A stretch of DNA of 64,000 nucleotides, from contig JAJEKV010000284.1 in the NCBI GenBank assembly GCA_021234155.1, forward strand, positions 124,001 through 188,000, in the 5' to 3' direction. The DNA comes from Isoetes taiwanensis. Lineage: Eukaryota; Streptophyta; Lycopodiopsida; Isoetales; Isoetaceae. Below are positions 14,398-61,331 of this stretch, piece after piece. The position numbers and the translations under genes are program-made. Positions within the stretch are counted from its first letter, which is position 1; every line of letters begins with the position of its first letter. Under the pieces are notes generated by a model. The model was not told the DNA's origin. It saw only the letters and a list, made by a program, of their open reading frames with translations, and ran no database searches.

Positions 14398-14640
14398 TCA
14401 ATGGTCAATAACCAATGGCTCACAACAAAAGCCCTTTTTTGTGCGTGTGGTGCATAATAGTCAACAACCAATGGCTCACAACAAAAGCCCTCTTTTTGTG
14501 CGTGTGGTGCATAATGGTCAACAACCAATGGCTCACAACAAAAGCCCTTTTTTTGTGCGTGTGGTGCATAATGGTCAACAACCAATGGCTCACAACAAAA
14601 GCCCTCTTTTTGTGTGTGTGGTGCATAATGGGCACATGAA
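14398..14640. repeat. 57-bp tandem repeat, four copies
   Basis: Units begin at 14412, 14468, 14525 and 14582 (landmark CCAATGGCTCACAACAAAAG), with spacing 56, 57 and 57 bp. The period is a multiple of three, so both strands give spurious repetitive open frames of 19-residue units. The first unit has a 1-bp difference in its T-run. A classic minisatellite. Confidence 0.9.
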
Positions 14641-15854: not shown

Positions 15855-15992
15855 ACGGTGAATTTTCGAATTAACGGACCGTTTGAGGCTTCCGATATAT
15901 ATACTGATGAAATGAATATGGCAGCGTAGCATCGTACAGGTTGTGGTGAGCATGCAGGCGAAGAATACAGCGACACAGCACATACCCAAGCT

Positions 15993-16351
15993 ATGGCGGA
16001 AAGTATCAACCTCAGCCAGACCAAGAGAGCAGAGGCGGCAAGGGCACCGGCAAGCCAACAGGATCTCAAAGATTTCCTAGCACAGATAAACAAGCAGCTG
16101 GAGACTAGGATACCCAGCATGGATGCACTCAACACGCTAGCGGAATCAGTCAACCGAAACAAGGTAGCCATCGCCAGCATGGACGTGAGGATAATAGGAA
16201 TGGAAAAGACAAGCGAGGAAATGCAGCGCAGAATGGACGAGATTGAAGAGGAGAAAGCCAAAATCCTGAATAGGTTGGTTGAATTAGAAAAAGGAAATGT
16301 TCAATTGAATGCATGGGCATTTGATAAAATAAAACCGCATATTGTAGAGTA
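15993..16351 (+). pseudogene. LINE ORF1, N-terminal part
   Basis: From the ATG at 15993 the frame encodes about 119 residues: a short leader (AESINLSQTKRAEAARAP), then a heptad-patterned coiled coil (LAQINKQLETRIPSMDALNT through MQRRMDEIEEEKAKILNRLV), and KIKPHIVEY. A coiled coil before an RNA-binding domain is the standard L1 ORF1 layout. An in-frame stop lies upstream near 15926, supporting this start. The frame is cut at 16351 by a 9.4-kb insertion; the RNA-binding part resumes at 25746 in the matching phase. Confidence 0.75.
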
Positions 16352-16382
16352 CACACTGACCCCAATTTTTGGTCCACAGTTG
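16352..16382 (+). repeat. left terminal inverted repeat
   Basis: Pairs with 25712-25742 with a few mismatches. Subterminal DNA to about 17150 contains repeated GACAYGTGGCATAT and ACAYGTAGAAAAA motifs. Confidence 0.8.
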
Positions 16383-17218
16383 TTTTTTTGTTGTACGGAA
16401 GTGTTGTTTTATGCCAAAAACAACACCAAAATGGCCCCAAAAGTCCACGTGGCCTGTTTATCCGGATTTGCACAAAGAGACAGTGGTTTTTTGGCAGAAA
16501 TTTCCCACTGTGGTCTTTTGGCAGAAAAATCCACGCGTAGAAAAAATTGACATGGTTTTTGTGAATTTTTGTCAACGTGTACTTTTTTCCTTCACTATTG
16601 TTTTTTGCCGGAACCATGTGTTGTTTATCTTTAAAATAGCACATGTAGGTTTTAATTTTACTACACCTGAAAAACTAAATTACAACACTAGAAATAAAAC
16701 ACAACAAAGAAAAGAACACGTAGGAAATAAAAAATTGATGTTTTCAAGTGTTCTTTTTGCAATATGGACATGTTATTTCAAGTGTTGTTTTTGCGAAATT
16801 AAAAAAAAAAATCACGTATGGCCTTTTTTTAATTTACAAAACCCTACATTTGTTATTGAAATCTAGCTATAGTTTTCATAAAATAAGGACATGTAAAAAA
16901 TAATATTATAACACGTAGAAAAAATGTGTGTTTCTAATGTGGTTGTTTAACTAATGAGATTTTGACATGTGGCATATTCTAAATAAAAAAACATTATTCT
17001 AGCTAATCAAGTATGGACACGTGGCATATTTTTGAAATAAAAAAAACATTATTATTACATGTAGAAAAAGAAGTATTGTTTCTAATATGTCTTCTATCAA
17101 ATCAAATGTTGACACATGGCATATATTAAAATAAAAAATTACCATAAACCACAATTTAAAAGCTAATATATTATGAATTTTTCATTTAGCTTTTTAATTG
17201 TTAAAAAAAAAGCCTTTT

Positions 17219-17231
17219 GGGAATCGAACCC
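17219..17231 (-). other. tRNA T-arm / pol III B-box-like relic
   Basis: On the minus strand, TTGGG-TTCGATT-CCCAA forms a perfect 5-bp T-stem with a 7-nt loop and matches the B-box GGTTCGANTCC. No matching acceptor stem, anticodon arm or A-box is evident upstream, so this is a relic (old tRNA or SINE head), not a tRNA gene. Confidence 0.4.
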
Positions 17232-19377
17232 AAACAAGTTCATAAGGCATACTATGGATTGCAATCTAAATTTTAACGTGAGATTATAACATTCAATGGT
17301 TAAGGTTTCAAACAAATTGAATTAATGGTTGTGGTTAAAAACAATGTAGCATAATTGACAGTGTGGGCTTTGATCAAACCTCTTGGTGTAGATGGTTCAA
17401 GTGCAATGCTATGTTCCCGAGCTTCAGGAGAGGACATAGATTTATAGTATGACATAGATTTATATTTTATACTTCCATTCACCACAGATTGGGATCTCCA
17501 AATCAATATAGAATTACAATTTTATAAGAGTAAATTACTTCTTCGATGATCGTGGCAGAGCTTGCAAGCGCTCTTCAAATAAAGAACATGTGTAGCCCGT
17601 GACCGCTTCAAACTAGAAGCTCTTCTCTCCGGGTCGAGAGGGTAGTTTCAGAGATCTCGGTTTCAGAAAAGTAGAGTAACCATCGGATGAAGAACTGCAG
17701 AAAAGAAGAGGATCGAGTTCCCCATACAATAAAAAGCATATTCGATTTTAACAGAGGAAAAGACTTACGCGTGAAGCTTTTAGCAACACCAAACAAGAAT
17801 GGCGGGAGGAATTTAACCCGTGAAGGAATGAACCTCTACCCCATCGATTGTGGCTGCAGTTGGTATTAAGGGAAAATACCTCTATTATACGCTTGCTACG
17901 GGTCTCATAAACCAGCAATGCTACCGATCTCATAAACCAAGCAAGGGAATCACGGACACCTTGGCCTCATCATCTTCTTTGCACAAAACAAGAAGGACAA
18001 AGTAAAAGAAAAGAAACAAATGCAATAAAATGAATCGGGTCTGCAACCAAGAACGTCACTTACCTTTGAAGCTTTGAAGCTCGCCTGAATCAGGAAACCG
18101 GTCATGTGATGAAGAAAGGTTTTCATCTTGCCTCTTATTGTGGCAGTGAGGAATAGATTCTCTATGTTCTTTGGATGTATCGCGCCAGCAGCAGCCGATT
18201 GACGGCGAGACTAGGGATATGGCCAGATTACGGATATGGCGAGATTAAGGAAGATTAAGGATATGGCAGAAGCCAGATCAAGGATATGGCGAGACTAGAT
18301 AGAAGCCAGATATGGCGAGACTAGGTAGAAAGACTAGGTAGCTCGCATTCACAAAGTTCAAAGGGTCGAATCGAAGACAAGAGGGATTGTGCCACTGCCG
18401 GATCGAAGAAAAGAGGGGCTATGCCAGCCGAAATTGCCATCACTATAGCCTAACACCATAGCCATCACCATAGCCTCCCCGTGCCTCCAGGCCTCCGTGC
18501 CTCCGGCTATTGTTGCAAGATGGTATGAAAGCCTGCGGCACCTCCCTCACGCCCTCGCTGGATTTGGCTGCCAAAGCGCCCCTGATGCTGGCGGCTATGG
18601 ATATGGATCAAGAAAAGAGGGGCAAAGGCTATGGCTATGGCCGGATTTGCCATTACCATGGCAAAGGGAGTGTCGCCACAGTAGAGGGTGGGAAAGAAAA
18701 AACAGGACACAGGTAGATGTCATTAATTGTAGCCCTTCAAGGAGCCAATCAAATTAGAGGACTCGGATCACGATCTCTACCGTTGATCGCTTCGTCAATC
18801 TCCACCATTCATTCTAGAACCAATAAAATTATAGGACTGGGATCAAGATCTTTGCTAATTACCTTGGCCGTTAATACAATACTACAGTATTATTTTATGG
18901 TTTACGCGTAGCAAAAGCATTATTTTAATTTTCAGCATATATTGTTTACCAGCAAACATGCTCGGATTATCGAGTGTCACCCAAGCGATGGGTTATTTTG
19001 ACTCAATGGCTACTTGCATAACAGGTGCTTGTGATAGTTTTGAAAAATAAGAACTTTTGGGTTAGATAGCTTTGCCGAGTTGTTGTGGTCAAGCATTATT
19101 TGGTCTTGCCTTGAAGCTTAAATCTATTTAATTTGATTAGCCACAAAGGGAAGTTGTTTTTTGCTATGGAATTTGATTGCCTAAGTATTAGATCACTCCA
19201 AAATTATTATCTTGAGCTTATAGAAAGGGCGAGACTGTGGTTCTCTAATAGTTGGGCATATATTGGACATATGGTGGGCAAAAATGTTCGAGCCAAATGT
19301 TAAATGCACCGCTTGATTATGCTTGTTTGTAGAAAATATTAACAACTTAAATCTGAATGCTAATTTCGTGTCATGTG
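17232..19377. other. interior of CACTA-like element, no gene
   Basis: Mostly unique sequence, with a simple GGATATGGCGAGACTAG-type repeat at 18210-18335. Splice-like signals (CTTACCTTTGAAG near 18060) hint at captured host sequence, but I cannot translate a recognisable protein. Confidence 0.4.
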
Positions 19378-20162
19378 GGCTCCAACATGCCACCTATGCT
19401 CAAACATGGCAAGCTAGCTCAAGCACGCCACCTAAGCTCAAACACGCCAAGGTGGCTCAAACATGCAACCTAGGCACCAACATACCACTTAGACTCTAAC
19501 ATGCCGCCTAGGGGCTCAAACATGTCAAGGTGGCTCAGAGATGCCACCTAGGCTCCGACATGCCACCCAAACTCCAACATGCCACCTAGGCTTCAACATG
19601 ACACCTAAGCTCAAACATGACAAGGTGGCTCAAACATCCCACGTGGGCTCCAACATGCCACCTAGGCTCCAACATGCCAAGGTGGGCCAAACATGCCACG
19701 TGGGCTCCAACATGCCACCTAGTTGGCTCAAGCATGCCACGTGGGCTCCAACATGTCGAGGTGGCTCAGACATGCCAAGGTGTCTCAAACATGCCACCTA
19801 GGCTCCAACATGCCAAGGTGGCCCAAACATGCCAAGGTGGCTCAAACATGCCACCTAGGCTCCAACATGCCAAGATGGATCAAACATGCCACCTAGACAT
19901 GTTTGAGACACCTTGGCATGTTGGGGCCTATGTGGCATGTTGGAGCCTGCATGGCATGTTTGAGCCATCTTGGCTTGTTTGCGCCACCTTGGCATGTTTG
20001 AGCTAAGGTGGCTTGTTGGAACCACCTTGGCATATTGGACCCACCTTGGCATGTTTGAGCCACCTTGGCATGTTGGAGCCTAGGTGGCATGTTGTGAGCC
20101 ACCTTGGCATGTTGGAGCCCGCGTGGCATGTTTGAGCCATCTTGCCATGTTTGAGCCATTGG
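19378..20162. repeat. 19-bp minisatellite with orientation switch
   Basis: About 27 units in one orientation (AACATGCCACCTAGGCTCC alternating with AACATGCCAAGGTGGCTCA) run to about 19897. There the array flips to the reverse complement (CATGTTTGAGCCACCTTGG and CATGTTGGAGCCTAGGTGG) and continues to 20162. Two 19-bp variants alternate, giving a higher-order unit of about 38 bp. Since 19 is not divisible by 3, all frames yield false repetitive peptides (HATWAPTCH type). The flip makes a large imperfect palindrome. Confidence 0.9.
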
Positions 20163-20724
20163 CAGAGTCAGTTCACAGTTCCGAAGTAGGAAAGTTGCCC
20201 GCCCGTGGCCAGGGTTCTTTGGGAGAAGACCTTTGGGGCGAACTGCCTCCGGAAGGTTTTAAAGGTCCATCTTCTGGCATTAACACCCTCCCTCTATGTG
20301 ATGACATTGTGCAAGATTTTGGTCGAATTTGACTAGGATATAGCCTCCGAAACGTAAACCCTGTGTGTTGCTAGGTTATTGAAGGGTTTACGTTATGGGG
20401 GTCGAGTTTTAGTCGGTTGCACTTGGGACATGGTTGAGAAGCTGCAATTGAAAATATGATGCAATAGGAACTGATGGAATGGGGTTTGGAGTTATCCTCC
20501 TCCCAGTATGGCAATTAGAATTCAAGAGCGCCTTTTGCAGTAGCAAAATTGTTTCGGATCATTCAGGATGGCCAATAGATCCAAACTCAACTATTTCAGT
20601 TGCAGAGGCTCCGCATGTGTGTTTAGCAAAGGTGCACCTAGCTATCCAAGAAAACGACCACGTTTTGGCCTCTGAAACGTAAACCCTGTGTGTTGCTAGG
20701 TTATTGTAGGGTTTAGGTTTCGGA

Positions 20725-21430
20725 GGCATGCATGTTGGAGCCACCTTGGCATGTTGGAGCCTAGGTGGCATGTTGGAGACCACGTGGCATGTTTGAGCCA
20801 CCTTGGCATGTTAGAGCCTGGGTGGCATGTTGGAGCCTGCGTGGCATGCTTGAGCCACCTTGGCATGTTGGAGCATAGGTGGCATGTTGGAGCTCGCGTG
20901 GCATGTTTGAGCACGTTGGAGCCCTAGGTGGCATGTTTGAGCCATTTTGTCATGTTGGAGCCTAGGTGGAGCCCACGTGGCATGTTGGAGCCCACGTGAC
21001 ATGTTTGAGCCACCTTGGCATGTTGGAGCCTAGGTAGCATGTTGAAGCCCATGTGGCATGTTTGAGCCACCTTGTCATGTTGGAGCCTAGGTGGCATGTT
21101 TGAGCCACCTTGGCATGTTGGAGCCTAGGTGGCATGTTGGAGCCCATGTGGCATGTTTGAGCCACCTTGGCATGTTTGAGCCTAGGTGGCATGTTAGAGC
21201 CCCGCGGTGGCATGTTGGAGCCTAGGTGGCATGTTTGAGCCAACTTGGCATATTTAAGCCTAGGTGGCATGTTGTGAGCCACCTTGGCATGTTGGAGCCT
21301 AGGTGGCATGGTGGAGCCCACATGGCATGTTTGAGCCACCTTGGCATGTTTGAGCCTAGATGGCATGTTGGAGCACCTTAGTGAGCCTGCATGGCATGTT
21401 TGAGCCTATGTGGCATGTTTGAGCCACTTA
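20725..21430. repeat. 19-bp minisatellite, second block (reverse orientation)
   Basis: About 37 units of CATGTTTGAGCCACCTTGG / CATGTTGGAGCCTAGGTGG in the same orientation as the right half of the first block. It is embedded within the first 805-bp unit, whose edge sequence is duplicated at the junction. Confidence 0.9.
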
Positions 21431-21582
21431 GGAAAGGCTGCCTCGACAACCTTTATGAGGTCCATCTCCTAGGGTCTGGCCTCTCCCCTCTAGAGAGAAA
21501 GATGGTCGAGTTTTATTCAGTTGCACTTGAGACATGGTCGAGAAGCTGCAGTTGAAAACAAGAAGCAATAGAAACTGACGAA

Positions 21583-21705
21583 ATGGAGTTTGGATTTACC
21601 GAGGCAGGCTTTCCTACCAGTGCTCCTCTGGGAGGGCAAATGCCAATGCCTCCCTTCCCGGAACCCGGTTTTCCTATCCGACCGTTGAATTCTCCATTCA
21701 AGTAA
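21583..21705 (+). CDS. 40-residue proline-rich micro-ORF, copy 1 of 4
   Basis: ATG to TAA, 40 residues: MEFGFTEAGFPTSAPLGGQM followed by PMPPFPEPGFPIRPLNSPFK. The same 123-bp frame is present at 22386-22508, 23198-23320 and 24003-24125, differing at a few residues (positions 2, 6, 9 and 16) with no indels, whereas flanking parts of the 805-bp unit have many 1-bp indels. This may mean coding constraint in an ancestor or a conserved nucleotide function. The reverse strand is also open across the segment, so coding strand is uncertain. No known family. Confidence 0.25.
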   Translation: MEFGFTEAGFPTSAPLGGQMPMPPFPEPGFPIRPLNSPFK

Positions 21706-22385
21706 CTTGCTTCGAAAGAGGGCTAAAAAATTCAAGATCTGTCAGGAGAACATATCAAAGCTGCAAAAGTGTCCTGCGGTCGGCCGGGTGTAGAAACCCA
21801 AGTGTTTTGTCGTTCGGGCGCATACAAAGGCTTCGGAATGGAGATTTGACTTATCGCCATGTCAAATTAAAACGGCCGAAATTACCCTAGGGACCAAGTT
21901 ACACGGTCATTTTTTGCAGCAACACATGGCAGTATTCCGCACCCTCCGCTAAGGCCAATTCACTACGAACGTGTTGGACGTGAGCTACTTTGGCGCTTCC
22001 TGGAGCAGGGGTGGTCTTACGCTCCGCGAAACTTGGTCTCCGGGGTAATGTCGATGTTTTGAGTCCGTTGGCGTAGTCGGATCCACGATTCCCGGTGGGA
22101 GAGTTGCCCGTCCGGGCGGGGACCTTCCAGAGAGGACCTTTGGGTCGAACTTCTTCTGGAAGGTTTTAAAGCTCCGTCTTCTGGCGTCAACGCCCTCCCA
22201 CTACCTCATGACATTGTGCAAGATCCTGGTCCAATCTGACTAGGGTATGGCCTCAAAAACGTAAACCCTGTGCATTGCTAGGTTATTGTAGGGTTTACGT
22301 TATGGAGGTCGAGTTTTATTCAGTTGCACTTGAGACATGGTCGAGAAGCTGCAGTTGAAAACAAGAAACAATAGAAACTGATGAA

Positions 22386-22508
22386 ATGGGGTTTGGATTT
22401 ATCGAAGCATGCTTTCCTACCAGTGCTCCTCCGGGAGGGCAAATGCCAATGCCTCCCTTCCCGGAACCCGGTTTTCCTATCCGACCGTTGAATTCTCCAT
22501 TCAAGTAA
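22386..22508 (+). CDS. proline-rich micro-ORF, copy 2 of 4
   Basis: Same 40-codon frame as at 21583, with I at position 6 and C at position 9. Full length. Confidence 0.2.
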   Translation: MGFGFIEACFPTSAPPGGQMPMPPFPEPGFPIRPLNSPFK

Positions 22509-23197
22509 CTTGCTTCGAGCAGGCTCAAAAAAATTCAAGATCTGTCCGGGAGAACATATCAAACCGCAAAGTGTCCCCGATCGGCCAGTGTAGAAACCCA
22601 AGTGTTTTGTCGTTCGGGCAATTACAAAGGCTCAGGAATGGAGATTTGACTTTGCCATGTCGTCCAAACAAATGAAATTACCCTAGGGACCAAGTTACCA
22701 CGGTCATTTTTGCAGCAAAAGAAACACGAACCCTCTACATGGCGGTATTCCGCACCCTCGCTAAAGGCGAATTCACTACTGAACGTGTTGGACATGAGCT
22801 ACTTTGGCGCTTCCGGAGCAGGGTGGTCTTACGCTCCTCTAAACTTGTTTCTCGGGGTAATGTCGATGTTTGAGTCCGTTGGCGAGTCAAATCACGGTTA
22901 GGGGGGGGAGTTGTTGCTGTCAGGTGGCGGGGACCTTCCGAGAGGACCTTTGGGTAGAACTTCTTACGGAAGGTTTTAGGGCTCCGATCTTACGGCGTCA
23001 ACGCCCTCCCACTACCTCATGACATTGTGCAAGATCCCGGTCCAATCGACTAGGGTATGGCCTCAAAAGCGTAAACCCCGTGGTGTTGCTAGGTTATTGT
23101 AGGGTTTACGTTATGGAGGTCGAGTTTTATTCAGATTGCACTTGAGACATGGTCGAGAAATTGCAGTTGAAAACAAGAAGCAATAGAAACTGACGAA

Positions 23198-23320
23198 ATG
23201 GGGTTTGGATTTACCGAGGCAGGCTTTCCTACCAGTGCTCCTCCGGGAGGGCAAATGCCAATGCCTCCCTTCCCGGAACCCGGTTTTCCTATCCGACCGT
23301 TGAATTCTCCATTCAAGTAA
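23198..23320 (+). CDS. proline-rich micro-ORF, copy 3 of 4
   Basis: Same 40-codon frame, consensus sequence (MGFGFTEAGFPTSAPPGGQM at the start). Full length. Confidence 0.2.
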   Translation: MGFGFTEAGFPTSAPPGGQMPMPPFPEPGFPIRPLNSPFK

Positions 23321-24002
23321 CTTGCTTGGCAGGCTCAAAAATTCAAGATCCGTAGGAGAACATATCAAACCGCAAAAGTGCCCTGCAGTCGACCGTCTAG
23401 AAACCCAAGTGTTTTGTCGTTCGGGCAGTACAAAGGCTCAGGAATGGAGATTTGACTTCGCCATGTCATCCGCAACAACGAAATTACCCTAGGGACCAAG
23501 TTATATGGTCATTTTTTGCAGCAAAAGAAACACGAACCCTCTACATGGCAGTATTCCGCACCCTCCGCTAAGGCCAATTCACTACGAACGTGTTGGACAT
23601 GAGCTACTTCGCTTCCAAGAGCAGGGGTGGTCTTCTGCTCATGAAACTTGGTCTCCAGGGTAATGTCGATGTTTCGAGTCCGTTGGCAGAGTCAGATCAT
23701 AGTTCCGGGGTGAGAGAGTTGCCCGTCCGTGGCCAGGGACCTTCCAGAGAGGACCGTTGGGTCGAACTTCTTCTGGAATGTTTTAGGGCTCCGTCTTCTG
23801 GCGTCAACGCCCTCCCACTACCTCATGACATTGTGCAAGATCCTGGTCCAATCTGACTAGGGTATGGCCTCCAAAACGTAAACCCTGTGCGTTGCTAGAT
23901 TATTGTAGGGTTTACGTTATGGAGGTCGAAGTTTTATTCCGATTGCACTTGAGACATGGTGAGAAGCTGCGATTGAAAACAAGAAGCAATAAACCGGGCG
24001 AA

Positions 24003-24125
24003 ATGGGGTTTGGATTTACCGAGGCAGGCTTTCCTACCAGTGCTCCTCCGGGAGGGCAAATGCCAATGCCTCCCTTCCCGGAACCCGGTTTCCCTATCCG
24101 ACCGTTGAATTCTCCATTCAAGTAA
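24003..24125 (+). CDS. proline-rich micro-ORF, copy 4 of 4
   Basis: Same 40-codon frame, consensus sequence. The frame is also open upstream (from 23892) through part of the repeat unit. Confidence 0.2.
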   Translation: MGFGFTEAGFPTSAPPGGQMPMPPFPEPGFPIRPLNSPFK

Positions 24126-24479
24126 CTTGCTTTGAGCACGCTCAAAAAAATTCAAGATCTGTCCGGGAGAACATATCAAACCATAAAATTGTCCCGGTCG
24201 GACGTAGTGTAGAAACCCAAGTGTTTTGTCGTTGAGGCAAGTACAAAGGCTCCGGAATGGAGATTTTACTTCGCCATTGGATTTTTAGTGCAAATCGTCT
24301 AAGTGCAATAAGTTATCTTGTTTTTCAAAGAACCATTGGATTCTTAGTGCAAATCGTCTATATTGTTTTTCAAAGAACCATTGCATTCTTAGAAAGAACC
24401 ATTGGATAAGATAAATTAGATACAATTAAAACCATTGGATGACGTGGATAACTATTGGATCGTCTATAGCGAACCTTAG

Positions 24480-24990
24480 TACCAACTAGATATAGGCATG
24501 GTTTAATGGTGTTCCACTAATGATATCCAAAATGGGGGGATAATGTTAGGATATTGCGTAGTCTTGCCATTTTATAATGCTTGGGGATTTGTTGCAATGG
24601 TCCTATTCCCCATAAACAATTACATCTCAAATTCTTAATGGTCTAAATTATACCAAGATGTAGGAACGGTTTAATGGTGTTCCACCAACGATATCCAAAA
24701 TGGGGGAATAATGTTAGGATATTGCATGGTCTTGCCATTTTAATGCTTGGGGATTTGTTGCAATGATCCTTTCCTCCATAAAGAAATACATCTCACAATT
24801 CTTAATGGTTTGTTATGCAAAAATGTAGGCGTGGTTTGATGGTCTTTCTCTAACAATATCCAAAATGTTAGGATGTTAGGATTTTGCGTGGTCCTATGAC
24901 ATTAATGCTTAGGGATTTGTTGCAGCGGTCCTGCACCCCCTCAAGGAATACAAATAAAATTCTTGATGGTTTTGTTATGCAAAAATAGGC
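24480..24990. repeat. about 167-bp direct repeat, three copies
   Basis: Copies start near 24501, 24669 and 24834 (landmark GGTTTAATGGTGTTCCAC, then TATCCAAAATG and GCTTGGGGATTTGTTGCAA). Non-coding. Part of the right subterminal region of the CACTA-like element. Confidence 0.8.
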
Positions 24991-25076
24991 GTTAAGTAAT
25001 TGAAGTAGTTGAAGTAACTTGTCTTACATGGAATACTAGTATAAGGACATGTGATCGTGCACGTGCATCACATGTA

Positions 25077-25545
25077 GCAAATCAAGTACTCTGTCCTACC
25101 ACTATAAAGACCCGTGATATGGAAGGATAGGACATGTAGAGAATCAAGTATTCTTTCCTACTTCTATAAAGACATATGACAATAGAAGTATTACACATGT
25201 CGTAATTCATGTATTCTTTCCTACAATGCCTTAGCAAATAAAGTACTCTGTCCTACTACTATAAAGACATGTGACATGAAAGCATACGACATGTAGAGAA
25301 TCAAGTATTCTTTCCTACTTCTATAAAGACATGTGACAATAGAAGTATTACACATGTCGTAATTCATGTATTCTTTCCTATAATGCCTTAGTAAATAAAG
25401 TACTCTGTCCTACTACTATAAAGACATGTGAATGGAAGTATAGGACATGTAGAGAATCAAATATTTTTTCCTACATCTATAAAGACATGTGATAATAGAA
25501 TTATTAGACATGTAGAAATTCAAGTATTCTTTCCTACAGTGGATT
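25077..25545. repeat. 157-bp subterminal direct repeat, three copies
   Basis: The landmark AAGTACTCTGTCCTAC occurs near 25084, 25241 and 25398, exactly 157 bp apart. Each unit holds ACTATAAAGACATGTGA, GGACATGTAGAGAATCAAG and TATTCTTTCCTAC. The recurring ACATGTAG/ACATGTG core also occurs in the left subterminal zone, so these are good candidates for transposase-binding sites. Confidence 0.85.
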
Positions 25546-25711
25546 GTATTATAAAATGAACATGTCACAATAGAAGAAACTACAAAACAACAGTGGATGT
25601 TTTAGTCCACTGAAAAAAGAACACCATTATCGAACAAAACCATACCTCCAGAAATCCACATGTAGGATTCTTTGAAAACAGGACATGTAGACCTACCAAA
25701 ACTGATGTTTT

Positions 25712-25742
25712 CAACAGTGGACCAAAAACCGGGGTGAGTGTG
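25712..25742 (-). repeat. right terminal inverted repeat
   Basis: Inverse of 16352-16382; ends GGGGTGAGTGTG, followed by the GTA target duplication at 25743. Confidence 0.8.
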
Positions 25743-25745
25743 GTA

Positions 25746-26269
25746 TGAGGAACAGACTAGAATTAGGCATGACGTTAGGCTTATAGGGATAGCAGAGAAA
25801 CCTAACGAAGATACATATCAAGTGACTGCAGAGGTGATAGAGGTGGTCTTCAAAGAACACAGGAGCATAATTGTCAAGGCAGTGCGATCAGGACAATGGA
25901 GGGGGAGAGCAAGGCACATAAACTTGACGCTCAGGGATCGATCAGCCAAGGAGAGGGTATTGCGGATAGGATCCGGGGCCGAGCGGGGATCAAGGTATGT
26001 GAAGCACTTCTGTGATGCAAAGGCGGGGCTACATTGGGGAGTGGCCAAGGCCGAGAACTAAAAGCGAGGATACAAAAAGAGGGGTCAAAAATGGCAAGGT
26101 GTTCTTGCACAAAAGAGTACGAGAACTGACAGGAGCGGGACAAGACCTAGGATCAGGAGCTCAGGAGACAGGGAGGTTGACGGATGGGGAGACAAATATG
26201 GAGAAGGAGAATACCAACCCACAGGGGGGCTCCATACAGTACACGGAACACAAAGGATGGCAGCCGTAG
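25746..26269 (+). pseudogene. LINE ORF1, RNA-binding part
   Basis: Continues the frame broken at 16351. RIRHDVRLIGIAEKPNED is RRM strand 1, then VRSGQWRGRARHINLTLRDR and VLRIGSG form the rest of the RRM-like fold seen in L1 ORF1 proteins. The first frame stops at 26061. A +1 frame from about 26020 to 26269 continues with KNGKVFLHKRVRELTG, resembling the normal C-terminal domain, so one frameshift is likely near 26050. ORF1 binds element RNA in the retrotransposition particle; here it is disrupted by both the insertion and the frameshift. Confidence 0.7.
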
Positions 26270-26459
26270 CCCCCACACCCATTCAAGACATGAGGGGAAG
26301 AAAGAGGGGGAGAAAGAGGGGGAAAAGGGGCCGACGCAGACGGAATAGCACGAGCCGGGAATATGAATCCAACCCGACCATGAAAACAAGAGGGAGACCA
26401 AGAAGATTGGGAAACGGAGCAGAACACACGGACACCCAGAGAGAGCAACCCCGAGGGAA

Positions 26460-29400
26460 AAGACACTGAAGATATGGTACTGGAACTGTACTGGGTACCC
26501 TTGGGATGATGGGGAGAGGCTGGAAGGGGCACACGGTTCTGATATAATATGTTTGGTGGAGACATGGGAGCACAACATAAAAAGACTACCAGAGGAAGAA
26601 GGGTACCAACTATTCACGTGCTGGAAGGATAAAAACTTCAAAATTGGAAGAGGGAGCACAGGATTAGCCTGTTATGTTAAAGAAAATGTAGTAAAAAGTG
26701 CGTGTATTTTGCAATCTGATGTCAATAAGAGATACATGGTTTTGAATATACAATTGCAGAACAAAATTGAATTAATCCTGATTTTAGCTTATTACCCACC
26801 AAGCAGTGATAAACTAGAACTGTTAGAACTGGGGGAGACTATGATGAAATGGAAAGAACAGGGTCCAATGATATTAATAGGCGATCTGAATGCCAGAACA
26901 GGGCAGGAACATGCACAAATCACGAGTATGGAAGACACAAATGGACAATGGACTAGCAAAACAAGATCAGAGGAATGGGACAAAAGTACAGAGGACAGAG
27001 CAGAAGTCAATGCCAGGGGAGAGTTACTACTTGAGATATGCTCGACCACAGGGGTAACTATAACCAACGGGGTACAAAAATGGGAAGGATCAGGGAAGTA
27101 CACGAGTCAGAATGCACACGGGAAAAGTATAATGGATTATGTGATAATGAATGACACTGCAGCGGAGATAGTATCGAGATTCAAACTCCTAGACTGGCCG
27201 ACCGACAAAAGGGAGAGCCACAGACCCATACAAACACTTATGGAAGACGAATGCACCCCGAAAGACAGGCATCAAGAAACAGAGGAAATTAACGGAAAAC
27301 TGAAAATACAATTTCAAGAGAATAAAATAGATGTATTTGTGCAGTACGTTCAAGAAGAAATGGGGAGATGGAATTGGGGGAAACACGGAGCAGACGAAAA
27401 TGGAGACAGGCTTAATGACATAATAGTGAAAGTGGCAGCTGAGGTTTTTGGAAAGAGAAGAAGAAAAAGAGGGAAGGATGCGTTCAAGGCCTCGAGTTGG
27501 TACGACGATGAATGCAGAGAACAGAAAAGAAGGGTCAGAGAGCATAAAGGGAGGGAGACATATCAAAAAGAGAAAAAGGTATATCTGAAGATGTTGAGAG
27601 CAAAGAGAAACAAAAACCTGATACAACATCAATGGGGACTGGCTAAACTCCTGAAAAAGCAACCCCGGAAATTCTGGAGAGGGTTCCAAAAGAAAGGACA
27701 AGGGAATCAGAAAAATGGTAGTACACAAGAGGATATTGGGGCAGAAGGATACCTGGAGAAACTATATAGGACTGGAGCATCTCCAGCACCAATACCAGAA
27801 TTACAAGGGATGGACAAGCCATGTTTTAATACACAGGAAGTGATGATGGCACTGAATAGAATGGCTAATAATAAAGCCCCAGACCTATACGGGTTAACAG
27901 TGGAACTATTAAAATGTGTAGATGCAGTAATTGTGAAACAGGTGACAGATATTTTCAACGGGATCATACACACGGGACTGGCGTATAACAGGGTGATACC
28001 CCTACACAAGGGAGGGAGCAGACACGAACCTGGAAATTACAGAACTATAATGGTGAGTTCCATTTTCGCAAAATGGTTTGGAAAAGTTTTAGACAACAAG
28101 CTGAAGCATTGGGCAGAGGGACAGGCAGGGTTCAGGCCGGATCACTCAACAACAGACCACCTAGTGACCCTCAGGATACTGGTAGAACAGAATAGAAACC
28201 AGGGGAAGAAAATAATATGCTGCTTTGTGGACTTTAGGAAAGCGTTTGACACAGTCCCGAGAGAAAAACTGATACAAAGGCTTATAGATATGCAGGCACC
28301 AAAGGATATGGTGGGGGCAATTGCAAGATTATACTATGGTGTATATGCGAAAATGGAAGAAGAAGGGAAAGCGATAGATTGTGACACAGGGGTCAAACAG
28401 GGGTGCCCACTATCCCCCACTTTGTTTGGAATATACATAGATGCTCTACAGGATTTTGTAGCAGAATAGCAAGGGGACACAGACGCACCTATTCTAGGAG
28501 ACACTAAAGTACCCATCATGCTATATGCAGATGACCTGAGCATGATGGCGACAAAGAACAAGGGGATGCAGGTGTTAACAAACCGGGCCGGAAAAATCAT
28601 GAAAAAACAGGGCTGACAATTAATCTCGCAAAAACCAAAATAGTCTTTTTCGGCCATAAAAGTAGACATAAACCGTTTAGATATTTGGGAACAGAACTAG
28701 AAGAATCAACAGAATACAGGTATCTAGGATATGATATGCACGGCACAGGAAAATGAGCTAAAGGGGCAGATACAAGATTCCAAACGGCCATCGGAAGCTA
28801 CTACAATATGAAAAATTTCTGCAACAAAAGCAGGATAGTAAGCTGGGAAATTAAATGCTATCTGTTCAGCGCAATAGTTGCAACTACGCAGCTATATGGG
28901 GCAGAGGCTTGGGGACCGGGTCTGACAGAGAAAAAATGGGAAAAACAAGAAGGAATTTACAGGCAATGGCATAAACAGGAATTTAAGCTGAGAACGAATA
29001 CACCACAAACAACTATAGTATATGAGACAGGGCAAAAACCGATGGAAGTAAGGGCATGGGAAAGGACCATCAGATATCTTATAAGGAACAATGCAGGTGG
29101 AAAACCAAATAAGCTAGCAAGCATCGCGATCAGTGAATCAGCGAAAGGCCACATAATCGAGGGCAACGGATGGTTTAGGGATGTAACAATATGGACAAGG
29201 AAGATGGGGATGAATCTGAGTGACATCATTACTGAAGGAGAATGGAATGATGAGTGGACAAACAAAGCCACGCAAGCTTGGTTGCAAAATCACACGGGTC
29301 CCAAGACAGCATGGCTTATGACAGTATTCAACCCGGGACAGCAGATAGGGCAACAGATGTACCAGGATAATCTAATAGGAAAAGCAAGGAAAGATATCCT

Positions 29401-42826: not shown

Positions 42827-43265
42827 ACTGCATGTGAATACAGAAAATTTTACATGTGAGGCGCCTCTTAGGGGTCACCGTTGCCGGAAAAAACAGTTTC
42901 CGTTAGCCATCGTAGCCCTAAACCGTCCAATGGAGGTGCCCCGTATGTGGGCCATCTCCCTTACAGCTTATCTTGGCTGGCTGGCAACATGGTTTGGCCG
43001 CTGCCGAAGAGCAAGGGAAGCGCCGATCCGTAAATAGCCCCCGTTGAGTACCGTACTTTAATCCGAGTAAGGAGTAAGGAGTCTTTCGAGAATTGTGGAT
43101 TCTATCATTTTATTCCTAATGGGGCCTCTTTTGAGTCGCATTATTCTCTAAATAAATGTGGATAAATGAAGGTGCAACGCAAAGGAATCGTTTGCGCACG
43201 TATTCAGCCTTCAGTTTTAGAACAAAGGCCTTCTCTCTTCAATGAAAGCAAGGGGGAAAAAAAAA

Positions 43266-44861
43266 ATGCCAGAGTTTATGGTGAAATGTGCGCTATTGCT
43301 CGCTCTTATCCGATGTGCAACATCAAATTCTTCCCGATGCAATACAGAATACGGATGTGGAAATTATGGAATTTGTGATCCATCTCGAGGAGATTATTGC
43401 TTCTGCGCTGATACTTTTACTGCCATAAGTCCGACCAACGCTTCCGCTGGGTGTAACCTAGGAGAGGGTTATACAACCCAATTCATAATGCTAAAAGGTG
43501 TGGCCTATTCTTTTTATCACGGATCTGATCCATTTTATTCTTCATATAATTCTTCAGATTGCCAAAATGCCTGCGTGCAACAAAACACCTGTTATGCAGC
43601 ATTTTTCAACGGATCTGGTGCTTGTCACCTCTTACTAAGGAAACCTGGTTCCCTCCTATATACTCTTGATCAGAAAGATGTTGCCTTCATCTATGCTGGT
43701 GGCACTGGCAAGCACTCCTGCTGTAGTGGATTTCCCGTTGGCGCAATTGTAGGTATTGCTCTTGGAGGTTTAATAGTTTTAATTTGTTTAATTTTGCTTA
43801 TATATCGTTGTAAGCTCAATCAGCATAAAAAAAGAAAGATCCAGGTGGCTTGGCCTGGGAAAAGCACAAAAAAGGGCATAGGCCCGATACAGTATTCATA
43901 CTCTGAGATAAAGAAGATGACCAAGAATTTCAATGAAAAAATAGGTCACGGAGGATATGCTGATGTGTATAAAGGATTTACTAATGGTACAGAGTTAGCC
44001 GTCAAAGTAATCAGGGCCATTGGAAATCAGGCGAGAGATTTCAACAGGGAGATAACAGTGCTTTCAATTATTCACCACTTCAACCTGGTTGATTTTGTGG
44101 GGTATTGCGCAGAAGGGACTAAAATGATTCTAGTGTATAAATTCATGGAGAATACTTCCCTGGACAAATGGATTTTCAGCAATTCTGCCAATCCGCTAAG
44201 CTGGGTGAAAAGATTTGACATCATAACAGGTGTGGCATCTGGAATGACTTATCTACACGAGCAGTGTGGAAACATTGTTCTACACTTAGATTTGAAGCCT
44301 CAGAACATACTATTAGATAAGAATTTTGCGCCTAAAGTTGCTGATTTTGGTCTTAGCAGGTTGCTAGACAGGGATCAACCCATGACATTCACTCAGACCA
44401 TAAGAGGATCACCCTTATACATAGCACCGGAAACCATGACGGGAGCTGGTCTAAATGAGAAGATGGATGTTTACAGCTTTGGAATCATAATGCTGGAAAT
44501 TGTGGCCGGGCGAAGAATTATAGATATATCTGGATCAGCACTGGCACAAGCTGTCTCAAGCATTGAGAGGGAAGATTTCTTTCCATTCGAATTGGTGGAT
44601 AGTGCCATACATACGTCTGTAGATGAAATTCAAGCTAAGAGGGTGATTCGAATTGCTTTTCTTTGCCTTTTGGCACCTGCTCAACGTCCTGTCATGTCTT
44701 GTGTTCTTCTTATGCTGCAGAAAAGGATACCCACCCAAACCCTTTCCGCTGCACAAGAAGCAAATCTGAAGGAGTGTTTTGCATCCAAACGTTCACCCCT
44801 GGCAGTTGTTGCAACACCTGTTATGAGCTACAGCTATGATGGGGACTTTGCTCCTGCATGA
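43266..44861 (+). CDS. receptor-like Ser/Thr kinase, lectin-less, non-RD
   Basis: Intron-less and complete. Starting at 43266 (MPEFMVKCALLLALIRCATS) gives a signal peptide directly; an ATG at 43242 adds only MKARGKKK, and residue numbers below count from it. Residues 33-57 are a compact EGF-like cysteine module (CGNYGICDPSRGDYCFC). 71-150 is PAN/apple-like with paired cysteines. 166-188 is a membrane helix followed by a basic stop-transfer. The kinase domain has a glycine loop GHGGYADVYKG (235-245), Lys255, Glu270, HLDLKPQN (348-355), DFG (368-370) and APE (395-397). HLD instead of HRD makes it a non-RD kinase, a class often tied to pattern-triggered immunity. It resembles S-domain (SD2) and LRK10-like kinases but lacks the B-lectin domain. 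Plasma membrane location is inferred. Confidence 0.9.
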   Translation: MPEFMVKCALLLALIRCATSNSSRCNTEYGCGNYGICDPSRGDYCFCADTFTAISPTNASAGCNLGEGYTTQFIMLKGVAYSFYHGSDPFYSSYNSSDCQNACVQQNTCYAAFFNGSGACHLLLRKPGSLLYTLDQKDVAFIYAGGTGKHSCCSGFPVGAIVGIALGGLIVLICLILLIYRCKLNQHKKRKIQVAWPGKSTKKGIGPIQYSYSEIKKMTKNFNEKIGHGGYADVYKGFTNGTELAVKVIRAIGNQARDFNREITVLSIIHHFNLVDFVGYCAEGTKMILVYKFMENTSLDKWIFSNSANPLSWVKRFDIITGVASGMTYLHEQCGNIVLHLDLKPQNILLDKNFAPKVADFGLSRLLDRDQPMTFTQTIRGSPLYIAPETMTGAGLNEKMDVYSFGIIMLEIVAGRRIIDISGSALAQAVSSIEREDFFPFELVDSAIHTSVDEIQAKRVIRIAFLCLLAPAQRPVMSCVLLMLQKRIPTQTLSAAQEANLKECFASKRSPLAVVATPVMSYSYDGDFAPA

Positions 44862-56863: not shown

Positions 56864-59800
56864 TTAAGCGCCTATTTCATCTCGTAGAATCTCTTTGTAG
56901 ACTACATTAGGTGTGAACCTCCTATTGTCTTTTAGCAGCCTTCCTTGTCTTGAGGTGTCTTGAATGTATACCTTCACTCCGTGTTGTGTAGTGCACCTTG
57001 AGAATGCGACGTAGAGCTGGCCATGTGCGAAAACTGGCGTTGGTAGGTAGATGCCAACGGAGGTCATGGACTGGCCTTGCGACTTGTTGATTGTCATCGA
57101 GAATGCGAGTCGCACGGGGAACTGTCTTCGCTTGAAGGGGAGGAGGTCACTGTCTGATGGCTCTAGGGTTATCCTTGGTATGAGGACCCGTGTTCCTTTG
57201 TAGGTGCCTGTGATTATCTCTGCATCTATGATTCTTGGGTGCGCTTTGATGACGCGAAGGCGGGTGCCATTGCAGAGACCGGCCTTCGGGTTCATGTTTC
57301 TGAGTAGGATGATGATGGCTCCGTCCTTGATGTGCAGCTTATGCGGTGGCATGCCAGAAGGGGTTAGGTGGTTGATGAACTCGATTGGGAAGTCCCTTGT
57401 AGCATCTTCGCCTTCTGCAATGATGGTGTCTACGCTCGTATATATATGGAGTTGTCCATTCAACCTTGAGAGGACCTTATCATTGATCTTCAGCGTGTCT
57501 TCATTCTTTGGTGCCAGGATGGCTTTGTCATACAACATGTGCACATTTGCCTCTGTTATTTCCTTGCCGAAGATGCTGTCAATTAAGTCGTCTTCCACAA
57601 CACATTCTTCGGGTATCTCAACCAAGTCGCGGTCGAGCCCTGGCTCATTATGCATCTGTTCCCCGTTACCGAGACGTAGCAGCCAATTTGAGAAGATTTG
57701 TTCGTCTTTTCCCACCCGCATATTTTGTGTCAGCTTGTGGGTCTTGAAGTTAGTCCACAGGGGGTTCCGCTTGACACACTTCGAGATGACTTCCGCCCTT
57801 GTTGCACGTTTGACCACAGGCAACTGCTGCCGAAAGTCGCCGCCGGTGAGCATTATCATTCCCCCAAACGGCCTGTCATCCTGGCGGATCTCGCGTAAAA
57901 GCCTGTCGACGGCAGTGAGTGCATGCGTGTGCGTCATTCCCATTTCATCCCATACCATGATGCTTGCCTTTCTAAGTACTTCTGCTTGTTGGCTTGTTGC
58001 ACGCAGTGCGGAGGTTGCCTCTTGTGTCAGGTTGAGTGGTAACTTGAATGTCGAATGGACTGTTTGTGCTCCCTTCAAGAGGAGGCTGGCAATGCCTGTC
58101 CAAGCCACTGATACAACACCAACACCACATCCTCTTAGTATACTGATCAGGCTGTTGAAGAGGAAAGTCTTGCCCGTGCCTCCCGGGCCGTCCACATTGA
58201 TACATGGGGCTTGATGTTGGCTGATTGCATCGAGGATAATGTCGGCTATGTGCTTCTGTTCCCTGTTGAGCTTGCCGTAGTTTTCCGTCCCTCTTTCAAC
58301 TCCTCTTTTTCGCGATCGAAGGTCCGTTTCATTTGGGAAGTTGCCTAGGATGTCTATTTGTGGTTCGGTAGTCCAAAGCCTGCGACATGTGCCGCCGTTC
58401 GAAAAATTTCGTCAATGTCTTTTAGTGCATTGTTGTAAGCTTGCTCTTGTGGCATTTGCCAGCCGGTAATCTTCTGTCGCGGCTGTCCTTGAAGAGCTCC
58501 CATAGCCGCATTGGATCTTGTGGGTCATTGTACGTGCAAATGAATGCTAATGTTTGGCGAGCCGCATTGGCATCCGAAAGTTGCTCGCATCTTCGAGTGT
58601 CTTCTCCCGCATCGGCATCCAAGAAGCCGAGCTCTTTGGCGCCTTCCTTGAAAGTTGAACATAGTTTTCCATTGGCGCGCATATCTTCGAAGTGGTCGCC
58701 CTTGATATGTAGCAAATGTAAGACGAAGGTAATAACGGTCACCATCCTTAGGGCTCACATTGTACATCCGGTGTGATGAGCTTGAACTTTCCCTTCCTCT
58801 TTTTCCGGACGCCCCGCTTGTAAATGTGTAGTCTTTGGGGTATTTTCGGATAAGTGTATTCATGTGTACTGGTCGTTCTTGTTGAGCTCAAACCATGCGT
58901 CAAGATTGTTTGCTTTTTGCATCCGCCGCTCAATGGCTTGTCTTTCTTGGCCTTCCGATAATACACGCTTGGTTGTTTTGGCGATGAACGGGTAGTCGTG
59001 GTAATCGTGTGGGAATTGCCATGCATCTTGAACCCATATAACCTCCACATGGCTTCAGCTGCAGAGACGTATCTCGTATCAAGGTACTGCTCCACCTCGT
59101 CCCAATTGAATGTGGATGTTGATTCCCCCGTCGGTTCTACAGTGACCTTGATGGATGCTCGATCATGCCCTTTGTGGATGTACTTGTAGATATACTTTAC
59201 GCTCCCGACGCTGAAACACTGCTCTACATTGATATGTGCCTCGTACTTTTCAAGCAGCCATCTATTATGGGGAACTATCCATCTGTTGTCAATAGGCGTG
59301 TTGCCCCTCATGAGATGGCCTGTATCCCGTCTTCTGTACTCTGGGTAGCCATTTGCACTGACTTTGGTATTGTCATTAAATGTCTTTGGATATCCCTTTG
59401 TGCATTCCTTCATTGGGCTGCCTTCCTTGGCTTGCATGCAAGGTGCGTTTGGGTTGAGGGCCCCGCATGGGCCGTGGACCATATGCTTGATGACGATCTC
59501 TCGCAGGTTGGGGTTTTCTGGGCCTGGCATCTCAGCACTCGTGATGCTGTCAATGGCATCGCTATCCCGGATCTTGTCTTCTTGCTCGAGAATCATGAGA
59601 AGGTGGCAGTGCGGCAAGCCTCGTTTTTGGAACTCTATCGTGTAAGTGTGCGCTTTCACCTTGCCCAAGATATCATTTTCGAAGAGGTCATGAAAGAACT
59701 CTTTGAGCTTTGTGTGGAATACGCGTACAACCAAATCTGGCCTATCATGCGGCTGTTGTCCAGGAAGTAGGTTGTGTCTAATCTCTATCCAATTTGGGTT

Positions 59801-61331
59801 GGATGTAAATGTTACAAAGAGGTCGGCTTTGCCAAATCTTCGGATCAAGGCCATCGAATCCTGGTAGTTTTGTTCCATTGCTCTCGGGCTGCCAATGTGT
59901 GAGGAGGGCGGGATAACCAAATTTTGCCGATCTTAAGCCTCTTTGCTCGCCCGTGGTCTATGTAGTCAATAAGGCCTTGGTACAACCTCGACCAAGAACT
60001 TCCTTTGGTTTTGCTTGATCCAATTTAGTTCATTTGCCTCCACTCTCGAGTAGACATCAACAATGAATTGTTGTGTTAGCTTGCCTGCACAAAGCAGTGG
60101 GTTGCAAGCTGATCTCCTTATTGCCAGCCGGTAATTGTAGAATTGAAGCATGCTCACATTTTCATGTTTCCTTGAAGACGTTGATGTGGAAGATGTTTCT
60201 GCTTTCTTGATTCCTATCCTCCAGCCTTGGTCACCAAAGGGGAAGAGAATGGGATAAACCAAGGGATCAAGATTTGGGTTTGTGATTGGGATTTTTTTCA
60301 AGCCGCCACCTTTTTGGTGTATGCAGATGTCCCTATCGAATGGTGGCTCTCCGTCTGCGTTGACAAATATCACTGCGACTTCGTTTGAGCATGCTGCGTT
60401 GTACCTCCTAAGGTCCGTGTTTCGAAAGCAAAGGTTAAAGTACATCCCCGATGTCCCTCACCCCTTCACGGACTGTTGTGCATGCTTTTTCTACATCATG
60501 CATCATCATGAGGGCTGCCTGATAGGGGCTGATTTTACGTAGTTCGGCTAAGATTCTTTTCGGAAGTTGGCTGTCACAATTTTCATTTCGTGGGTTTTGA
60601 GCTCGTGGTTTCATGTGCAAAGTCGGCATCTAGAATATAGAGTCGAGAATATGTTGGTGCTTGCTAACCATTGGCATAAGCCGGACCTACTCTATGGTAG
60701 GTTTGTCCTTGGATCTTGAAACAATATGGTCCGTGGCCTTGAAACCTTTCGATGTTTGGCTTAAAGGAAGCAAAGGCAAGAGCACTATTGTAGGCCCCGG
60801 ATGTGTTGGTGGAAGTTAATGCTTTTTGGATGTTGATGGCTCAATAGGCTCGAATGAGATGGGGATTGGTTGTAGGGGTTCCAACTTGATTTGTCCATCA
60901 TGGCAGCAGTTTGTACCATCGCCCTTGAATGCAATCGCCCCCACGTTGTATGCACTCCCTATTGAATGAACCGCAATGGTGTCGTTCTACTTGTTGACTT
61001 CAAGTGTCCTTGCTATTCTCAGTATGTGGGTGGTTGAGCTCGCCATTGACGTTGATATTGTGCAAGTTCACCCAACCTTTGTTGTTGCTCTTCTTACATT
61101 TCTATGGCAGCTTGTTGGGCTCTTCTTTGACGCTCATATTGGGAGTGTTGGGCCAATCTTTGTCGATGTTGGTCTTCTCGTTTCTATGGCGGTTTGTTGT
61201 AGCTTTCTTTTCTTGTAATATTCTTCTTCTCTTACCAATCGAGCTTCACGGTCCTGCGATGTCTCTCTAGCACGCTTCTCCCTATAGTTATTTCTCTCGA
61301 ATGCACGCCTTCTTTTTCGTTCTTCCGTCAT
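56864..61331 (-). pseudogene. Helitron Rep/helicase (RepHel)
   Basis: Start near 61331 with the basic N-terminus (RRRAFERNNYREKRARETSQ). Then come HDGQIKL, YNSALAF and YHRVGP-type zinc/N-terminal signatures in shifting frames, and the Helitron-like N domain (60445-59966). The Rep domain has the HUH motif GLPHCHLLM and the tyrosine motif KYIYKYIHKGHD. The Pif1-family helicase has LNREQ, GPGGTGKT (Walker A), VWDEMGM (Walker B), GGDFRQQLPVV, LTQNMR, and TINKSQGQS and YVAFSRC near the end. It should nick and unwind for rolling-circle transposition. Frames shift near 58850, 58740 and 58440 and at several points in 59960-61130, so it is dead, although catalytic motifs are intact. Confidence 0.9.

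Follow-up and report, generated by a model that had tools for sequence, protein, structure and literature searches.

A high-copy family of DNA transposons with CACAC ends, probably CACTA-like, in the lycophyte Isoetes taiwanensis

A stretch of 64,000 nucleotides of the Isoetes taiwanensis genome (assembly GCA_021234155.1, contig JAJEKV010000284.1, forward-strand positions 124,001 to 188,000; here C779:124001-188000), hereafter called the window, carries a 9,391-bp DNA transposon with CACAC ends (16352-25742, + strand) that interrupts open reading frame 1 (ORF1) of a long interspersed nuclear element (LINE). The sequence of the ends, their recurrence across the genome and paired target-site duplications place the element in a family that probably comprises several hundred copies in this genome. 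In the interpretation that we regard as likely, the family is young, high-copy and apparently non-autonomous, a Tpn1-like, CACTA-like group with non-canonical ends that is moved in trans by a CACTA-type enzyme.

The insert starts with CACACTGACCCC at 16352 and ends with GGGGTGAGTGTG at 25742. It is flanked by GTA on both sides, as originally predicted; the left copy (16349-16351) is LINE sequence, and the right copy of the target-site duplication lies at 25743-25745. The predicted 9.4-kb span (16349-25745) corresponds to a real insert but includes both GTA copies, the element proper being confined to 16352-25742. Inverted ends, which had also been predicted, are present, but measure 31 bp rather than 12 bp. 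The terminal inverted repeat is imperfect, as the 5' end (16352-16382, + strand) and the 3' end (25712-25742, - strand) agree at 27/31 bases, a score that is equalled or exceeded in 20 of 200,000 cases when inverted 31-bp pairs are drawn at random from within this repeat-rich element.

The empty LINE site makes the boundary of this DNA transposon exact, in line with the precise bounds, 3-bp duplications and CACAC ends originally proposed. The 5' part of the ORF1 frame that received the insertion is located at 15930-16351 and the 3' part at 25746-26061; an ORF2 piece featuring endonuclease and reverse transcriptase matches follows at 26367-28469 (Exo_endo_phos, 8.4e-06; RVT_1, 2.7e-20), and all three are on the + strand. 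LINE paralogues were searched with the left 300 bp (best 40 scored matches of 570 candidates), and ten loci were cut out (L005-L014), one of which (L005) is the window itself. In all nine others, which were selected by similarity to the left half, the ORF1 halves adjoin at the exact predicted base. The original prediction had set non-adjacent halves beforehand as a possible refutation, and its precise split of ORF1 is borne out. At the joint, 6/9 paralogues have GTA, whereas L008, L010 and L013 each differ from this triplet by a single substitution. By eye, the joint, GAGTA followed by TGAGGAAC, reads in frame as KPHIVEY-EEQTRIRH, which agrees with the continuity expected when the insert and one GTA are left out. 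The left half of the window LINE is 96.0-98.3% identical to the nine paralogues and the right half 82.1-89.7%. Because the nine paralogues differ among themselves in the same way (mean identity 97.1 in the left half and 91.1 in the right half), the right part of ORF1 appears to be generally less conserved in these LINE copies. The insertion is an event of an ordinary kind, in which a DNA transposon jumped precisely into an older LINE.

A genome search for the ends had been proposed together with the original prediction, which a lack of other copies would have refuted; the search revealed such copies. The end pattern CACACTNACCCCNNTTTTTGGTCCAC, with at most one mismatch, was searched in 1,658,258,908 bases (1,110 records), using the reversed pattern as a control. 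It occurs at 1,568 places (792 forward and 776 reverse), compared with 0 for the control. Provided that most copies keep both ends, these places would correspond to approximately 780 elements. Pairing was carried out among the 100 places at the head of the list, none of which has a mismatch; they comprise 45 G-type (5') ends, 54 C-type (3') ends and one T. Within 35 kb, adjacent ends form 26 convergent pairs, each consisting of one G-type and one C-type end, and five further neighbouring ends are not convergently oriented. The pairs span 8.6 to 30.3 kb, and half of them (13/26) are shorter than 10.8 kb. Exact 3-bp duplications flank 25 of the 26 tested pairs (10/10 in a first set and 15/16 in a second), compared with 2/240 matches when, among the 16 second-set pairs, the left triplet of one element is combined with the right triplet of another. 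The 26 triplets, the window's included, vary in sequence and are 74% A+T.

Since 25 of the 26 pairs feature exact duplications, CACAC must be the true terminus and not a shifted CACTG. The CACAC start had been noted as unusual, and it is; it represents the terminus of a high-copy family and not the mutation of a single copy. At the 5' end, bases 13 and 14 vary: AA followed by the full GGTCCACAG occurs at 380 places, GA, with base 7 left free, at 93 places, and a pyrimidine at base 14 at 13 places, all of which read AC. When the 5' 352 bp were searched, the best 40 of 1,192 candidates, a favourable selection from which the window is excluded, were 95-99% identical.

Five full copies were compared, namely the window element (9,391 bp), C23 (9,797 bp), C9 (17,906 bp), C241 (13,837 bp) and C124 (14,302 bp). 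They share 335 bp to about 1 kb at the 5' end (78-89% identity) and about 0.9-1.5 kb at the 3' end (93-97% identity). All five match the 19-bp arrays and the 805-bp repeats of the window element, the order and orientation of which vary. The remaining interior differs among the copies, a combination of conserved ends and variable interior that resembles Tpn1. It may also harbour further insertions; in C241, for example, a LINE-like piece was recognised by eye.

In the window element, an AT-rich 5' subterminal region (16352-17250, + strand), the first ~335 bp of which are common to the five copies, is followed by a variable internal segment (17250-18950). Next comes a 19-bp minisatellite (19378-20158) made of units like GGCTCAAACATGCCACCTA, first in direct and then in inverted orientation. 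A second 19-bp array (20730-21374) is inverted relative to the first, with, for instance, 206-nt arms that are 88% complementary, and a transcript across the inverted arrays could fold into a long hairpin. About 3.5 tandem copies of a ~805-bp repeat (21504-24277), three ~165-bp repeats (24480-24970) and three ACATGT-rich 157-bp subterminal repeats (25075-25538) complete the element. ACATGT occurs 5 times in the 5' 900 bp and 15 times in the last 900 bp, compared with base-shuffle means of 0.28 and 0.30, respectively. Across the five copies, 900-bp regions contain 2-5 ACATGT at the 5' end and 14-16 at the 3' end; C9 features internal clusters as well, with 25 in its middle. The 19-bp minisatellite also occurs as a 76-bp fragment in C1030 (L090, ~8655185-8655260), where no CACAC end was found in 22.6 kb of sequence.

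The 1.7-kb variable segment is present in some family members only. It was found at, or near, full length at ten other places, five of which (C1042, C1067, C1007, C1062 and C455) sit just inside family 5' ends, and in pieces elsewhere. Pieces in C1035 and C1093 are collinear with it, and the 1.5-1.8 kb of sequence retrieved at these loci shows no CACAC end. Such collinear pieces suggest gene-fragment capture, and the segment may plausibly be a captured fragment, in antisense orientation, of a putative host gene. A 40-amino-acid frame of the C1035 locus (L092, C1035:13412600-13414400) has 14 matches in the genome. Its similarity to the window element is weak, with an E value of 0.023 at an unrelated place and of 0.075 (8/11 residues) at the site of the DNA match. 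By eye, L092 also shows, next to its stretch resembling the variable segment, an inverted repeat like that of a miniature inverted-repeat transposable element.

The original prediction found no recognisable transposase in the element, and our searches agree. TnpD-like sequence was not found in the five full copies (tblastn, 40 TnpD fragments, E 0.01); as a positive control, 40/40 fragments match each of two TnpD loci, which are the source of two of the fragments. The window element is overlapped by 62 listed frames with a length of 60 amino acids or more. Ten of them, taken from the longer frames, were compared with Pfam, and the sole match, to DUF1459 (E 0.059), does not reach the cut-off of that family. 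No Rfam family or tRNA was detected in the window.

In published work, the first 5 bp of CACTA elements are described as a highly conserved CACTA (PMC4158355), and their terminal inverted repeats as 10-54 bp long (PMC4938662). The family shares with the superfamily its 3-bp target-site duplications, a terminal inverted repeat within this range (27/31 over 31 bp) and, in the subterminal regions, clustered short repeats in both orientations, represented by the ACATGT enrichment and the 157-bp repeats. The interpretation given by the original prediction is supported in part; CACTA membership in the strict sense fails on the terminal motif.

Several observations weigh against the interpretation of a CACTA-like family served by a CACTA-type enzyme. 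The termini are neither CACTA nor CACTG, as the duplications around the window element and around 25 of 26 pairs set the end at CACAC. The remaining pair, C536, has no matching duplication; a third end lies close by, and the two ends may have been wrongly paired. Only 7 exact end matches have a base other than A before CACTS, and a CACTG-ended sister family, which we considered, is unsupported by so few matches.

The search for the transposase yielded further points on the same side. Transposase_21 (TnpD) is abundant in the genome (167 matches; 150 of 2,312 candidates scored), often in long open frames, and clustering of 40 TnpD fragments at 20% distance gives six groups (A-F). In eleven TnpD loci sampled from the six groups, each with 5.6 kb upstream, CACACTNACCCC was not found on the gene strand at up to one mismatch, and the best match to a 26-bp end on either strand has 6 mismatches. 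Longer stretches around group C and F genes, and ~4.6 kb upstream of the C520 TnpD, contain no CACAC-ended partner. Fourteen interior samples (600 bp) from three long CACAC pairs, one of which is C536, do not match TnpD, and 4/14 match known family interior. When 229 CACAC ends, drawn from the end-pattern search, the 5' 352-bp search and the GA and base-14 pyrimidine variants, and 150 TnpD places were compared by coordinate, both lists being partial (C534 was entered twice, and the partial match C1076 was omitted), a listed TnpD and a CACAC end lay within 20 kb at only two loci, with 0.83 expected; the additional 5'-variant places of the GGTCCACAG set were compared with the TnpD places by eye only. 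At both loci TnpD falls outside the element. In C962, to judge from end positions, a 3'-type end at 184,726 separates TnpD (182,553-183,107) from the 5' end, and in C520 a pair with an ATG duplication starts at 78,539, beyond TnpD (75,543-75,947). A search for the TnpA domain (PF03004) had no match anywhere, controls included, and is uninformative. Thus, a transposase-encoding relative with CACAC ends, which the original prediction suggested looking for, was not met among the loci and lists sampled, although CACTA transposase genes are abundant. In Ipomoea nil, a single putative autonomous Tpn1 element stands beside 339 catalogued copies (PMC5105172), and a partner missing from a sample is consequently unsurprising. 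The family may formally belong to the CACTA superfamily, although its terminal motif differs and the transposase was not found in the loci sampled.

An element of canonical type is present in the same genome. It belongs to group C, measures 12,685 bp (C1039:2423011-2435695; L111, L089, L079 and L112) and features paired CACTACTACAAAAAT ends, a TTT duplication and a frame of 526 amino acids that contains the TnpD domain. The sequence flanking it matches C124 on both sides of the 3-bp overlap, which places this CACTA element inside a copy of the CACAC family. Both have inverted-repeat ends and a 3-bp duplication; in contrast to the CACAC family, the C1039 element carries CACTACTACAAAAAT ends and a TnpD frame. 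A second group C locus, C1071, has the same 3' end motif. Candidate CACTA-type end motifs were found at one locus each, without duplication, in groups A (CACTACTAGAG), D (CACTACAAGGG), E (CACTACAAGAG) and F (CACTACAAGAGG, 3' side), and were not seen at second loci of groups A, D and E (L076, L082 and L084). Group B aligns to group A, and one copy contains CACAACAAGAG, a one-base variant of the CACTA-type motif. In the group B loci of C1040 and C907 (L077 and L078), a further frame is located upstream of TnpD, which, judging by eye, we take to be SET-domain-like; in L078, homology to L077 starts abruptly beside an unrelated upstream frame.

The abundance of TnpD domains, many in long open frames, and the C1039 element, with its paired CACTA ends and TnpD frame, are consistent with cross-mobilisation, in which the ordinary CACTA-ended transposases of the genome would move the family without any CACAC-specific partner. 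We consider this unlikely, as CACTA transposases are held to be end-specific, and the inverted repeat beginning with CACTACTACAAAAAT has little beyond CAC in common with that beginning with CACACTGACCCC. Assignment to a different superfamily of DNA transposons that also makes 3-bp duplications is, in our estimate, very unlikely. A terminus departing from CACTA and CACTG, and the lack of CACTA transposase in five full copies and 14 interior samples, would fit it; however, the CAC start, the 31-bp inverted repeat, the AT-rich 3-bp duplications and the subterminal clusters together make up the anatomy of a CACTA element. PIF/Harbinger, a plant superfamily that makes 3-bp duplications, favours TWA targets, whereas only 2 of the 26 triplets (TTA and TAA) are of this type. 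An assembly artefact, a chance resemblance or a point mutation in the end of a CACTA element can be dismissed, given 1,568 ends with none in the control and duplications in 25/26 pairs.

For the family as we interpret it, CACTA-like and moved in trans, a TnpD-type transposase supplied from elsewhere would recognise the CACACTSACCCC ends, and a TnpA-type protein would bind the clustered ACATGT-rich subterminal repeats. The element would then be excised and inserted with a 3-bp stagger. Cargo between the ends, including minisatellites, 805-bp repeats and possibly captured gene pieces, would travel along, as in the Tpn1 family. The 3-bp stagger and the CAC start point to a CACTA-derived transposase, the terminal recognition of which may have changed at bases 4 and 5. 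More tentatively, and with the odds somewhat against it, a transposase lineage in a lycophyte, either CACTA-derived or separate, may have switched its recognition to CACAC, perhaps through an outward CA duplication before CACTS, and amplified hundreds of passengers of 9-30 kb. If true, this switch would represent a clean case of end specificity changing naturally within a superfamily that takes its name from its ends.

Tpn1 elements end in CACTA; the present family differs in its CACAC ends and in the 19-bp minisatellite and ~805-bp repeats shared by the five compared copies. The Tpn1 family, which belongs to the CACTA superfamily, features 28-bp inverted repeats, AT-rich 3-bp duplications, tandem subterminal repeats of 122 and 104 bp, and variable interiors with captured host DNA (PMC5105172). 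Probably hundreds of copies, apparently non-autonomous, AT-rich 3-bp duplications, tandem subterminal repeats and a variable interior are likewise found here, where host-gene capture is only suggested. The Chenopodium CACTA element Jozin is described as having direct and inverted units near its ends, fragments captured from genes and, in some elements, satellite arrays, and is similar in these respects, but has CACTAGT ends and its own transposase gene (PMC8978399). In common bean, pvCACTA1 is comparable in its high copy number and AT-rich 3-bp duplications, but exceeds 12,000 copies, and its description names CACTA as the terminus common to the superfamily (PMC4938662). In the Isoetes taiwanensis genome paper, 0 occurrences of CACTA are counted (PMC8566536). 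A narrow search of the open-licence literature, which is weak evidence of novelty, did not find a CACTA/EnSpm family with CACAC or other non-canonical ends.

Elsewhere in the window, Helitron frames with Helitron_like_N and PIF1 helicase matches are located at 56864-59932 (- strand), and a receptor-kinase-like frame with a protein kinase match and a weak PAN match at 43221-44858 (+ strand). A 57-bp tandem repeat (4.1 copies, 96% matches) is found at 14400-14631.

The five terminal bases often serve to identify CACTA elements, and annotation based on this motif would miss a large CACAC-ended family such as the one described here. With their exact boundaries, its hundreds of copies form a clean set on which the stringency of CACTA-type transposases towards the terminal bases can be tested, and the family adds an example from a seed-free plant to the passenger elements of the Tpn1 style.

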